A stretch of DNA of 64,000 nt from assembly GCA_025934775.1 (NCBI GenBank), contig JAICWO010000006.1, positions 62,001 to 126,000 of the forward strand. The letters are read 5' to 3'. Source of the stretch: Gemmatimonadaceae bacterium (GTDB lineage: Bacteria > Gemmatimonadota > Gemmatimonadetes > Gemmatimonadales > Gemmatimonadaceae). Positions 34,869 through 38,929 of the stretch are shown here, one piece after another (within the stretch, counting starts at the first letter, position 1; the number at the start of each line of letters is the position of its first letter). The position numbers were made by a program, and so were the translations under genes. The notes beneath the pieces were generated by a model. It searched no databases and was not told the origin of the DNA. It saw nothing but the letters and a program-made list of their open reading frames with translations.

Positions 34869-35669
34869 ATGACCATCGCCCGCATCGCGCTCGCGAACCT
34901 GCGCTTCCCCTCGTCGCCGGACGAGTCGGTGCAATCAGCGGAGGATGCGATCGCCCGTGCGGGCGCCGAGCACGCGCTCGTCGTCTGCTTTCCGGAAGCG
35001 TTCGTGCCCGGCTATCGCGTCGGCGCCTCGACGATGTCGCCGCCGAACGCCGCTTTTCTCGAGGACGCGTGGTCGTGTGTCGAGCGCATAGCCAAATCCG
35101 CCGGCGTCGCGGTCGTACTCGGCACCGAGCGGGTGATCGATGACGCGCTTCGTATCAGCGCCCTCGTGATCGATCGCGACGGCACGCGGCTTGGCTTTCA
35201 GGACAAGGTGCAGCTCGACCCAAGCGAAGATGCGATGTATGCCGCGGGGTCGGAGCGGCGCGTCTTTCGCGTGGGGCCGCTCACGTTCGGCATCTCGATC
35301 TGTCACGAAGGCTGGCGATACCCGGAGACCGTGCGCTGGCCCGCGCGGCACGGCGCGCAGCTCGTGTTTCATCCGCACTATCATTGGGCCGAGCCAGGCA
35401 GCTTTCGTCCGACTACGTTCGGCGATCCGGCGAACACGTTTCACGAAGGCGCACTGCGCTGCCGGGCGGCGGAGAACACGTGTTACGTCGCGAGCGTGAA
35501 CTACGCGAGCGACGGCTCGCCTACGACGTCGGCGGTGATTCGGCCGGACGGGAACGTGCTCGCGTACCAGCCGTACGGCGTCGAGGGGCTGCTGATCGTG
35601 GACGTCGATCTGAGCGCAGCGACCGGACTCCTGGCCGCGCGATTCAAGCCTGAGTCGGCGACCGCTTGA
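34869..35669 (+). CDS. Carbon-nitrogen hydrolase (nitrilase superfamily)
   Basis: 266 residues. The catalytic triad is complete: E43 in VCFPEAFVPGY, K113 in GFQDKVQLDPSE and C145 in FGISICHEGWRYPE; E120 matches the fourth conserved acidic residue. It should hydrolyse a C-N bond of an amide, carbamoyl compound or nitrile, but the specificity-determining loops (WRYPETVRWPARHGAQLVFHPHYHWAEP) do not match a specific subfamily I can name. It is cytosolic, without a signal peptide. The next element downstream is the Cys-rich leader at 35693, 23 bases after its stop, so read-through from this gene into the sulfur operon is possible. Confidence 0.88.
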   Translation: MTIARIALANLRFPSSPDESVQSAEDAIARAGAEHALVVCFPEAFVPGYRVGASTMSPPNAAFLEDAWSCVERIAKSAGVAVVLGTERVIDDALRISALVIDRDGTRLGFQDKVQLDPSEDAMYAAGSERRVFRVGPLTFGISICHEGWRYPETVRWPARHGAQLVFHPHYHWAEPGSFRPTTFGDPANTFHEGALRCRAAENTCYVASVNYASDGSPTTSAVIRPDGNVLAYQPYGVEGLLIVDVDLSAATGLLAARFKPESATA

Positions 35670-35692
35670 CGCCCGGTGCATCTTTCTGGCGC

Positions 35693-35794
35693 ATGACGAT
35701 TCTTCCGAACTCCGCGAATTGTTGTTGTCCGAAGACCTGTGCTCGCTCCTTCGAGAGTGGTCACGGTTTCGTCGCGCGCGGAGGAGTCGAGTAG
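35693..35794 (+). CDS. Cysteine-rich leader peptide (predicted attenuator sensor)
   Basis: A 33-codon ORF beginning MTILPNSANCCCPKTCARSF. Cys codons are at 10, 11, 12 (35720-35728) and 16. No Shine-Dalgarno site is visible before the ATG, so it may be a leaderless message. It ends 31 bases before a strong intrinsic terminator (35825-35861) that precedes the sulfite reductase and cysG genes. Poly-Cys leader ORFs that act as cysteine-responsive attenuators of sulfur genes are known in mycobacteria. By analogy, stalling at the Cys run when Cys-tRNA is short would permit read-through. Neither translation nor attenuation has been shown here. Confidence 0.72.
   Translation: MTILPNSANCCCPKTCARSFESGHGFVARGGVE
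35742..35760 (+). promoter_or_regulatory. Antiterminator segment with protecting hairpin in the Cys leader
   Basis: GAGAGTGG (35753-35760) can pair with CCGCTCTC (35829-35836), the left arm of the terminator, through 8 consecutive pairs including one G-U. CTCG (35742-35745) can instead pair with CGAG (35752-35755), hiding that segment. A ribosome stalled on the Cys codons at 35720-35728 would cover about up to 35740 and hinder this 4-bp hairpin, freeing the antiterminator. This is the classical four-segment arrangement, read by eye only. Confidence 0.55.
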
Positions 35795-35824
35795 ACGCAT
35801 ATCGCCCATCCGTTCGCCGAATCC

Positions 35825-35861
35825 AAGCCCGCTCTCACTCGAGAGCGGGCTTTCTGTTTTT
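35825..35861 (+). terminator. Intrinsic terminator in the leader of the sulfite reductase operon
   Basis: AAGCCCGCTCTC (35825-35836) and GAGAGCGGGCTT (35841-35852) form a perfect 12-bp stem with a 4-base loop ACTC, followed by TCTGTTTTT. It lies between the leader peptide stop and the sulfite reductase ATG at 35895, so it would terminate leader transcripts unless the antiterminator forms. Confidence 0.88.
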
Positions 35862-35894: not shown

Positions 35895-37526
35895 ATGACG
35901 GATACGCAGGAGAGGAAGGAAACAGCGGCGCAGCGCGTGGAGCGCATCAAGCGTGAGCGGCCATCGTGGTCGATCATGGACGACATTCGCCGCTACGCGC
36001 GCGCGGGATTCGACTCGATCTCCGCGGACGACCTGCAGGTGCGCTTCCGCGCCTGGGGGCTGTACACGCAAGGCGATGGACGCGGCACGCGCGGCGAAGA
36101 GCAGCCGTACTTCATGATGCGTGTACGAACGCCCAACGGCGTGCTGAATTCGTCGATGGTGCGCACGATCGCGAATCTCTCCGATCGCTACGCGCGCGGC
36201 AGCATCGACATCACCAACCGGCAGAATTTCCAGCTCCACTGGCTGCGGATCGAAGACGTGCCGACGGTGTGGGACGAGCTCGCGCGCGTCGGATGGACGA
36301 GTCAGGGCGCGTGCGGCGACAACACGCGCACCGTCACCGGATGCCCGCTCGCCGGGATCGATCACCAGGAGCTGATCGACGCGTCGCCGGTCGCGCTCGC
36401 CGTGGACCGCGCGATGAACGGCGATCCGGCTTTCGAGAACCTGCCGCGCAAGTTCAAGATCACGATCACCGGGTGCTCACACTGGTGCACTTATCCCGAG
36501 ATCAACGACATCGGCGTCACCGCGGTTCGCCGTGGCGACGGCCGCGTGGCGTTCCAGGTGCGCGTGGGCGGCGGACTCTCCACACGTCCGCATTTCGCCG
36601 AAGCGTTGCCCGCGTACGTCGAGGCCGGCCAGGTGCTCGATGTCGTGCGCGCGATCGCGGGAATCTTCCGCGACTCCGACGAGCTGCGGCACAACCGCGC
36701 CAAGGCGCGGATGAAATTCCTGTTCATCAACGGCTTGTGGACGGCGCCCACCATTCTCGAGGAGATCGAGCGGCGAATCGGCTACGCGTTGGAGCGCTCG
36801 CCGGTGGTCGCGCCTCCCGAAGGCGTGTACCGTGACCACGTCGGCATTCATGCGCAGCGGCAACCGGGACTCGACTACGCCGGCTTTTCGATCGTCTCCG
36901 GACGCATCACCACCGACCAACTGCGCACGATAGCGCAGCTCGCCGAGGGCTACGGTGATGGCGCGCTTCGGCTCACGACGTCGCAGAACGTGATCGTGCT
37001 CAACGTTCCGCACGACCGCACGGCCGACCTGGCGCGTGAGGCCGCGGCCGCGGGGCTCCCGTTGTCCGGATCTCCCTTTCAGCGCGGCACGCTCTCGTGC
37101 ACCGGATCGGAGTACTGCAAACTCGCGATCACCGAGACCAAGAAATTCAGCATCGCGCTCTCCCGCGAGCTCGAGGCGCGGCTGCCACAGTTTAACGAAT
37201 CCTTACGCGTGCACGTGACGGGATGTCCGAACGCGTGCGGCCAGCATTGGATCGCTGACGTGGGACTTCAGGGCGTGCTCATTCAGCGCGACGGAGTACC
37301 GCTCGAAGGGTTCGACGTGTTCGTTGGCGGCGGAGTGGGATCGCGCGCGGCATTCGCGCGGCGTTTGGGGTACCGCGCGCCGGCCGGCGAGATTGCGGAC
37401 GCACTCGAGCGGCTCTTTCGGACATTCCAGGCGGGCCGCTCGCCGAATGAGAGTTTTCAAAGTTGGTCCGGGCGCGCGGGGGATGCGCGCCTGCGAGCCG
37501 CGCTGGCGGGCGACGCGGCCGGATGA
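35895..37526 (+). CDS. Siroheme-dependent sulfite (or nitrite) reductase, ferredoxin type
   Basis: 543 residues from the ATG at 35895; the open frame back to 35739 crosses the terminator and is not coding. The siroheme/4Fe-4S ligands are C402, C408 (LSCTGSEYCKLAI) and C444, C448 (VTGCPNACGQHW). The N-terminal half has the matching parachute domain PYFMMRVRTPNGVLNSSMVRTIANLSDRYARG-SIDITNRQNFQLHW and ACGDNTRTVTGCPLAG, like mycobacterial NirA. It should reduce sulfite to sulfide with six electrons from ferredoxin. Sulfite is favoured over nitrite because of the Cys-codon leader and the cysG gene overlapping its stop (ATGA); sequence alone does not decide. Confidence 0.9.
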   Translation: MTDTQERKETAAQRVERIKRERPSWSIMDDIRRYARAGFDSISADDLQVRFRAWGLYTQGDGRGTRGEEQPYFMMRVRTPNGVLNSSMVRTIANLSDRYARGSIDITNRQNFQLHWLRIEDVPTVWDELARVGWTSQGACGDNTRTVTGCPLAGIDHQELIDASPVALAVDRAMNGDPAFENLPRKFKITITGCSHWCTYPEINDIGVTAVRRGDGRVAFQVRVGGGLSTRPHFAEALPAYVEAGQVLDVVRAIAGIFRDSDELRHNRAKARMKFLFINGLWTAPTILEEIERRIGYALERSPVVAPPEGVYRDHVGIHAQRQPGLDYAGFSIVSGRITTDQLRTIAQLAEGYGDGALRLTTSQNVIVLNVPHDRTADLAREAAAAGLPLSGSPFQRGTLSCTGSEYCKLAITETKKFSIALSRELEARLPQFNESLRVHVTGCPNACGQHWIADVGLQGVLIQRDGVPLEGFDVFVGGGVGSRAAFARRLGYRAPAGEIADALERLFRTFQAGRSPNESFQSWSGRAGDARLRAALAGDAAG

Positions 37527-38929
37527 CGACGTACTATCCCGTCATGCTCGATCTGCGGGACCGGCTCGCCGTCGTGATCGGCGCCGGTCCGGTGGCCGAG
37601 CAGAAGCTGCGCGAGCTGCGCGAGGCCGGCGCGCGTGTTCGCGTCGTGAGCCCGCGGGCATCTCCGGCCGTCGAGGCGTTGGCGGCCGCGGGAGACATCG
37701 AATGGATCGCCCGCGAATATGCACGCGGCGATCTCCGCGGCGCTCGCATCGCCGTCGCGGCGACGGGTGACGCGGCCGTGAACGCACGCGTGTGGAGGGA
37801 AGCCGAAGCGCGCGGCGTGCTCCTCAACGCCGTGGATGATGTGGACCGGTGTCATTTCATCGCGCCGTCCGTGCATCGGGAGGGTGGCGTGACGATCGCG
37901 GTGTCGACTGGCGGCGCGTGCCCGGCGCTTGCTGTGCGGCTGCGCGAGCGTTTCGCTCGCGCGGTGGGCCCGGAGCACGCCACGCTGGCGCGCATTGCCG
38001 GGTCGCTGCGCGCCGAGGTCGCGCGCCGTGTACCGTCGCTCGACGTGCGGCGGAGGCTCTGGTACGGAATCGTCGACTCGACCGCGCTGGCGTCGCTCCG
38101 TACCGGGGACGAAGCCGCCGCATGCGCTGATATTGAAACAATCATTCAAAAACACGAAACAACGACGGGGACGGCGCGCGCCAGCGCGCGTCCGCCGGGC
38201 TCCGTCGCCCTCGTGGGTGCAGGACCCGGCGATCCGGAGCTGATCACCGTTCGCGGCCGGCAACTGCTCGAGACCGCGGACGTCGTGCTCCACGACCAGC
38301 TCGTCGCCCCCGCGCTCGTGGCGCGAGCGCCGGCGCACGCCCGGGTAGTCGACGTTGGAAAGCACGGTCATGGGCGCGCGATGCCGCAGCGCGCCATCAA
38401 TGCGCTGCTGGTGTGCGAAGCGCGTCGCGGCAACCGCGTGGTGCGCCTCAAGGGCGGCGATCCGTTCGTATTCGGCCGCGGCGGCGAAGAGCTCGCGCAC
38501 CTTCGCGCCGCCGGGATTCAGTGCGAGGTCGTGCCCGGCGTGTCGTCGGCAATTGCGGCGCCGCTCGCGGCGGGAATCCCTGTCACGCAGCGCGGCGTGG
38601 CGTCGGCGTTCGTCGTCGTTGCCGGCCATGCATCGAACGACGGCGAGCCGCCGGATTGGACGGCGATCGCGCGCGTGCCGACGATCATCGTCCTGATGGC
38701 GCTTCGATCGCTCGGCGCGATCGGCAAGCGTCTCGTTGCGGCCGGCGTACGGCCTGATACCCCGGCCGCCGTCGTTTCGCGTGCGACGTTGGCCGGCGAA
38801 CGCATCGTGACGGGCACGCTATCGACGATCGCTGCGATCGCTGCCGCCGCCCAGCTCGAGCAGCCGGCGACGCTGATCGTAGGAGAGGTCGTGCGCTTGC
38901 GCCGCGACGATGCTCGGCCAGCCGACTGA
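37523..38929 (+). CDS. cysG: Siroheme synthase CysG (precorrin-2 dehydrogenase/ferrochelatase plus uroporphyrinogen-III methyltransferase)
   Basis: 468 residues. The N-terminal CysG-B part (~1-200) has the NAD-binding AVVIGAGPVAEQKLRELREAGARVRVVSP and NAVDDVDRCHFIAPSVHREGGVTIAVSTGG. The C-terminal SAM-dependent methyltransferase (~225-468) has SVALVGAGPGDPELITVRGRQLLETADVVLHD, VGKHGHGRAMPQ, VRLKGGDPFVFGRGGEE and PGVSSAIAAPLAAGIPVTQRG. Together they convert uroporphyrinogen III to siroheme, the cofactor of the preceding reductase. The ATG overlaps the reductase stop (ATGA), so cofactor and apoenzyme are made together. The linker between the domains (ETTTGTARASARPPG) is low-complexity. Confidence 0.95.
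   Translation: MTTYYPVMLDLRDRLAVVIGAGPVAEQKLRELREAGARVRVVSPRASPAVEALAAAGDIEWIAREYARGDLRGARIAVAATGDAAVNARVWREAEARGVLLNAVDDVDRCHFIAPSVHREGGVTIAVSTGGACPALAVRLRERFARAVGPEHATLARIAGSLRAEVARRVPSLDVRRRLWYGIVDSTALASLRTGDEAAACADIETIIQKHETTTGTARASARPPGSVALVGAGPGDPELITVRGRQLLETADVVLHDQLVAPALVARAPAHARVVDVGKHGHGRAMPQRAINALLVCEARRGNRVVRLKGGDPFVFGRGGEELAHLRAAGIQCEVVPGVSSAIAAPLAAGIPVTQRGVASAFVVVAGHASNDGEPPDWTAIARVPTIIVLMALRSLGAIGKRLVAAGVRPDTPAAVVSRATLAGERIVTGTLSTIAAIAAAAQLEQPATLIVGEVVRLRRDDARPAD

Follow-up and report, generated by a model that had tools for sequence, protein, structure and literature searches.

Most of what is known about leader-peptide attenuation comes from proteobacteria and actinobacteria. 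The trp leader of E. coli (RF00513) combines an ORF carrying the sensor codons with three stems, 1:2, 2:3 and 3:4, and has a GC-rich terminator (AGCCCGC..GCGGGCU) with a U tract. For cysteine, leaders without terminators were predicted in mycobacteria by Seliverstov et al. in 2005 (PMC1262725), and Canestrari et al. 2020 is cited in PMC13236596 and PMC9031893 for poly-Cys ORFs that are leaderless and act at the level of translation. In Rhodobacterales, uORFC-8-2 is a predicted cysteine attenuator located before cysS (PMC8632094). For Acidobacteria, it was noted that hardly any of the predicted attenuators had been given a function (PMC2965389).

We analysed a stretch of 64,000 nucleotides, here called the window, from the 4.88 Mb genome of a soil bacterium of the Gemmatimonadaceae. 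It contains an element that we identify with high confidence as a ribosome-mediated transcription attenuator specific for cysteine, Table 1. The element shares with the E. coli trp leader the sensor-codon ORF, the three stems and the GC-rich terminator with its T tract. However, it is predicted to sense Cys and not Trp, its ORF has no Shine-Dalgarno motif upstream, its 1:2 stem is weaker, and region 2 lies inside the ORF, ending 34 nt ahead of the ORF end, so that a ribosome at the stop codon leaves region 2 uncovered. With uORFC-8-2 it has in common the tandem Cys codons (two in uORFC-8-2) in a short uORF, an intrinsic terminator and the same proposed logic (PMC8632094). On the other hand, uORFC-8-2 is found only in Alphaproteobacteria, before the cysteinyl-tRNA synthetase gene and with UGC dominant (PMC8632094), while the set described here belongs to other phyla, precedes sulfate-assimilation genes, has UGU dominant and is mostly without Shine-Dalgarno motifs. 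The mycobacterial poly-Cys sORFs resemble our set in placing Cys-run leaders before cysteine-pathway operons.

Table 1. Features of the predicted cysteine attenuator and its downstream genes, in window positions.
Feature	Position	Strand	Evidence
Leader ORF, 33 codons; translation MTILPNSANCCCPKTCARSFESGHGFVARGGVE, then stop	35693-35794	+	sequence
Cys codons 10-12 (TGT TGT TGT), TGT starts at 35720, 35723 and 35726	35720-35728	+	sequence
Cys codon 16 (TGT), 5' foot of the protector hairpin	35738-35740	+	sequence, leader alignment
Protector hairpin 1:2, 9 bp	35739-35764	+	folding; alignment of nine leaders; independently RNAalifold
Region 2, antiterminator 5' arm	35753-35760	+	folding; pairing conserved in nine leaders
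Intrinsic terminator stem 3:4, 12 bp, 4-nt loop; AAGCCCGCTCTC-ACTC-GAGAGCGGGCTT, then T tract	35825-35852	+	folding, terminator scan, conservation
Region 3, antiterminator 3' arm, within the terminator 5' arm	35829-35836	+	folding; pairing conserved in nine leaders
T tract TCTGTTTTT	35853-35861	+	sequence, terminator scan
NirA-type ferredoxin-dependent sulfite/nitrite reductase	35895-37526	+	PF01077/PF03460; nearest solved structure 1zj8
Siroheme synthase CysG	37463-38929	+	PRK10637, 440 bits (cut-off 400)

The initial annotation had proposed a Trp-type cysteine attenuator at this place, and most of its parts are found as described. The ORF with Cys at codons 10-12 and 16 is present in the sequence, and the 12-bp stem with its T run is the sole terminator-like site between 35500 and 35900, where shuffled sequences give 0.3; the energy of the stem is -23.2 kcal/mol. 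The 8-bp antiterminator was recovered as well, with one G-U pair and an energy of -14.6 kcal/mol; on its own, this pairing does not differ significantly from shuffles (p 0.22). For the protecting hairpin, its existence is confirmed but not the 4-bp version first drawn (35742-35745/35752-35755). This is replaced by a better hairpin, which pairs 35739-35741 with 35762-35764 and 35743-35748 with 35755-35760 (-8.6 kcal/mol). The whole 206-nt region folds better than its own shuffles (z -2.4).

Family matches agree with the two downstream genes expected, a sulfite reductase and cysG, the substrate of the former being only probable. The closest solved structure to the reductase, a NIR_SIR-family protein, is M. 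tuberculosis NirA (1zj8, E 8.6e-93), itself a sulfite reductase. The window protein misses the NCBIfam cut-offs and the profiles leave sulfite versus nitrite undecided; it is probably a sulfite reductase. The cysG ORF starts inside the reductase gene, and its family match begins near 37532. Upstream, on the same strand, a carbon-nitrogen hydrolase gene ends at 35669.

For the element itself, we infer leader translation, stalling, termination and a response to cysteine, as follows. When charged tRNA-Cys is ample, the ribosome would pass through the leader and the 1:2 protector would form behind it. Region 3 would then be free, and the 3:4 terminator would halt RNA polymerase ahead of the two downstream genes, sulfite reductase and cysG. 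Under a shortage of charged tRNA-Cys, the ribosome would wait at the TGT codons, chiefly at Cys16 at the foot of the protector. The stalled ribosome would open 1:2 and free region 2 to pair with the emerging region 3, and this 2:3 pairing would block the terminator so that the operon is transcribed.

Such a switch is not reproduced by equilibrium folding in which the ribosome positions are masked. The terminator wins wherever the ribosome is placed, and as long as region 4 is missing the antiterminator is the preferred fold, whether a ribosome is present or not. The switch must be kinetic. In the same test the E. coli trp leader (26 nt followed by 116 nt confirmed in E. coli genomes) also ends in the terminator, yet it discriminates before region 4.

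Nine homologous leaders, including that of the window, were aligned (alignment A2). The protector is paired in 94% of the cells, the terminator in 99%, with both-sided changes in four pairs, and the antiterminator in 100%, including a GC/AU exchange; slid control structures pair in only about 40-60% of the cells. RNAalifold recovers the same protector and terminator without structure input. The homologous leaders of other genomes have the pattern C..C..CARS.GSG in common, and the codon at the protector foot, Cys16 in the window, is TGT in seven of the nine. The relatives keep both the Cys run and the stem, whose absence would have counted against the proposal, and their stems carry compensatory changes. 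The conserved leader and stems, these compensatory changes and the cysteine-pathway genes downstream all support the proposed Trp-type attenuator. The nearest relatives of the window, by sulfite reductase, are Gemmatimonadota.

A covariance model run against 395 genomes from the phylum found six extra full-length members above 100 bits outside the training set, each of them with a Cys run, e.g. SCCPPCRKMCARSSGSGRGCGAVAAGMQ. The finds outside the training set include members before cysC and sulfite reductase. Matches below about 31 bits, mostly bare terminators or chance, were not counted. True Cys leaders occur among the weaker matches at L215, L216, L217, L219 and L221 (L numbers denote loci); at L218, L220, L222, L223, L225, L228 and L229 no Cys leader was found. 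In the genome of the window, the window leader, itself in the training set, scores 101.9 bits, and no second copy was found by the model, the next best match having 16.5 bits.

Other leaders diverge in sequence from that of the window, yet they share the overall plan. At L002, L004, L022 and L024, GCGGCCGG near the leader end pairs with CCGGCCGC in the terminator, and in the Acidobacteriota leaders CTCTGG or CTGGCG pairs with CCAGAG or CGCCAG. Some Acidobacteriota terminators with bulged stems (L040, L042-L045, L048, L053) were missed by the scan and spotted by eye in the sequence. Among 30 leaders, the antiterminator pairing of each leader with its own terminator has a mean energy of -22.5 kcal/mol, compared with -17.8 kcal/mol when swapped between loci, and the observed mean was not matched in any of 20,000 permutations; taken singly, many leaders are non-significant, that of the window among them.

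Many leaders of the relatives are probably leaderless, with translation starting at the very 5' end of the transcript, because a sigma-70 -10 box sits 5-10 nt before the start in 22 of 56 leaders, a count that also requires TTGAC with a spacing of 16-18 nt. Elsewhere the same promoter pattern was seen at only 4 sites in 692 kb. A TANNNT box 5-9 nt upstream accompanies 18 of the 99 in-frame ATGs before the Cys run but none of the 52 ATGs in the other frames, and Shine-Dalgarno motifs are rare (3 of the 99 in-frame ATGs). The window leader is off this pattern, with CATCTT 8 nt before the ATG and no fitting -35 box. Since the hydrolase stop codon is only 23 nt from the leader ATG (35667-35694) and no recognisable promoter was found between them, the window leader may be transcribed from a promoter further upstream.

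The probable leaderless starts of many relatives are also what a cysteine-responsive translational or Rho-dependent control, with the hairpin as accessory only, would have in common with mycobacteria. There the poly-Cys leaders have no conserved terminator (PMC1262725), and their control is reported to be translational (Canestrari et al. 2020, as cited in PMC13236596 and PMC9031893). We consider such control improbable here, as intrinsic terminators with T tracts are found in the window and in nearly all leaders examined, and the antiterminator covaries with the terminator arm.

Transcription attenuation also has to be weighed against another origin of the hairpin. With the hydrolase gene ending just upstream in the same orientation and no promoter recognised before the leader, the hairpin could be the plain intergenic terminator of that gene, and the Cys ORF could be there by chance. 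We examined 30 sulfite-reductase loci with any terminator up to 1 kb upstream, picked regardless of a leader. In front of 21 of the 30 terminators there is a Cys-rich ORF (at least 3 Cys per 8 residues, ending just before the terminator), while shuffled sequence gives 0.4 (sd 0.7). The enrichment is specific: Cys leads by a wide margin, with all other residues nowhere near. Pairs of Cys ORF and terminator in related loci number 29 in sense and 3 in antisense orientation, and in most of them the stop codon is 22-46 nt from the terminator. Near 30 further TGYTGYTGY sites in the window's own genome, no such pair was found in 178 kb (both strands). Together with the conservation of leader, terminator and alternative stems in relatives and the fit of antiterminator arms to their own terminators, these counts make a plain terminator very unlikely.

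The Cys codons of the leaders are biased in their usage. The leaders contain 90 TGT and 52 TGC, the genes of the same loci 48 TGT and 252 TGC (Fisher p 5e-23); in the window TGT makes up 4 of 4 Cys codons in the leader and 15 of 72 in the genes. One reading is that the slower codon serves as the sensor, another that the base composition of the leaders is looser. Cys accounts for 4 of the 33 codons of the window leader, and the Cys-rich character is kept in relatives, while the spacing varies freely among leaders (CCC, CACAC, CCxxC, CMCM). In several leaders Met codons are interleaved with the Cys run or directly follow it, as in CCCM, CMCM and CCMCCMC (L002, L004, L014, L022, L035, L042, L043, L106, L116, L117, L219); these leaders may respond to methionine supply as well, or translation may re-initiate at the ATG.

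Small Cys-rich ORFs with metal or redox roles are known, e.g. the copper-responsive CxxxC uORFs, and by this precedent the leader peptide might sense metal or redox state and not cysteine supply. This would hardly be compatible with a free Cys spacing at constant Cys content, the TGT bias, and downstream genes of sulfate assimilation and transport, and we reject it. A metabolite riboswitch for SAM or another sulfur compound, of the kind that often controls sulfur genes in other bacteria, is rejected with even greater confidence, as no Rfam family reaches its gathering score in the window or ten related loci (the best weak match is Trp_leader, RF00513, with 19.5 bits where the cut-off is 41) and the conserved core sits within the reading frame with the Cys codons.

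Cys-rich leaders followed by a terminator were found at about 56 loci in Gemmatimonadota and Acidobacteriota. As first gene or just behind, they precede sulfite reductase (window, L002, L014, L034-L038, L119, L213), CysH (L106, L110, L113, L116, L194), CysC (L022, L191, L193, L205, L208), CysN/C (L182), a frame with a CysD-type PAPS_reduct domain (L190), a sulfate-binding protein (L195) and a uroporphyrinogen-III methylase (L062). By this distribution the element is regulon-wide and extends beyond a single operon. No leader with terminator was found in the examined stretch of the sulfite-reductase loci L010, L012, L013, L028, L101-L105, L108, L112, L114 and L118, whose operon heads may lie outside it, nor was a Cys leader found before the cysND genes of the window's own genome.

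Cys leaders with terminators also precede a Porin_O_P outer-membrane protein, at L216 / L235 (G041:C62) and L215 (G379). In G041, genes for a sulfate-binding protein, CysW and CysA lie behind the porin gene. Because of the leader in front and these transport genes behind, the porin is probably specific for sulfate or sulfonate.

At L217 / L236 (G044:C44), a Cys leader (SCCRTTLACPSGSSRGRAG) and terminator precede the gene of a TonB-dependent receptor; the receptor may serve in the uptake of a sulfur source. At L219 / L238 (G235) and L221 / L239 (G158), Cys-rich leaders such as MSCMCMCCCMC precede a RimK-like ATP-grasp protein and a monooxygenase, the latter near SfnG/SsuD but below the cut-off; a sulfur-scavenging or thiol pathway is possible. 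One leader ending in ISGQGSFRT, at L052 (CAJCHZ010000039.1), is labelled Betaproteobacteria. This ending matches Acidobacteriota (L036), and the label is therefore probably wrong.

Some genomes contain two such leaders. The same leader type occurs with various first genes, and this suggests a cassette-like element that moves from one operon to another.

A Trp-operon-like cysteine attenuator with an intrinsic terminator had initially been put forward as new for a Gemmatimonadota-like genome. A cysteine attenuator with such a terminator had already been predicted once (uORFC-8-2, PMC8632094), and with the mycobacterial and Rhodobacterales precedents the kind of system is known. What may be new is the form, probably leaderless in many cases, regulon-wide and with intrinsic terminators, in these phyla. 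Our literature search found no description of this form there, and no paper combining Gemmatimonadota with leader-peptide attenuation.

We lean slightly towards a broader reading, in which Gemmatimonadota and Acidobacteriota sense cysteine mainly via leaderless poly-Cys attenuators across the sulfur regulon, with promoter and attenuator moving as one cassette. The regulon would then cover sulfate uptake, activation and reduction, siroheme and perhaps sulfonate scavenging. Cysteine-sensing attenuation with intrinsic terminators appears here to span a whole regulon in two little-studied phyla. If the leaderless start is true, the ribosome would load once the 5' end of the RNA emerges, a coupling unlike that of a Shine-Dalgarno leader. 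The element also marks genes without an assigned role as sulfur-related, such as the TonB receptor, the porin before a sulfate transporter, and the ATP-grasp enzyme beside a monooxygenase of the sulfone/sulfonate type.
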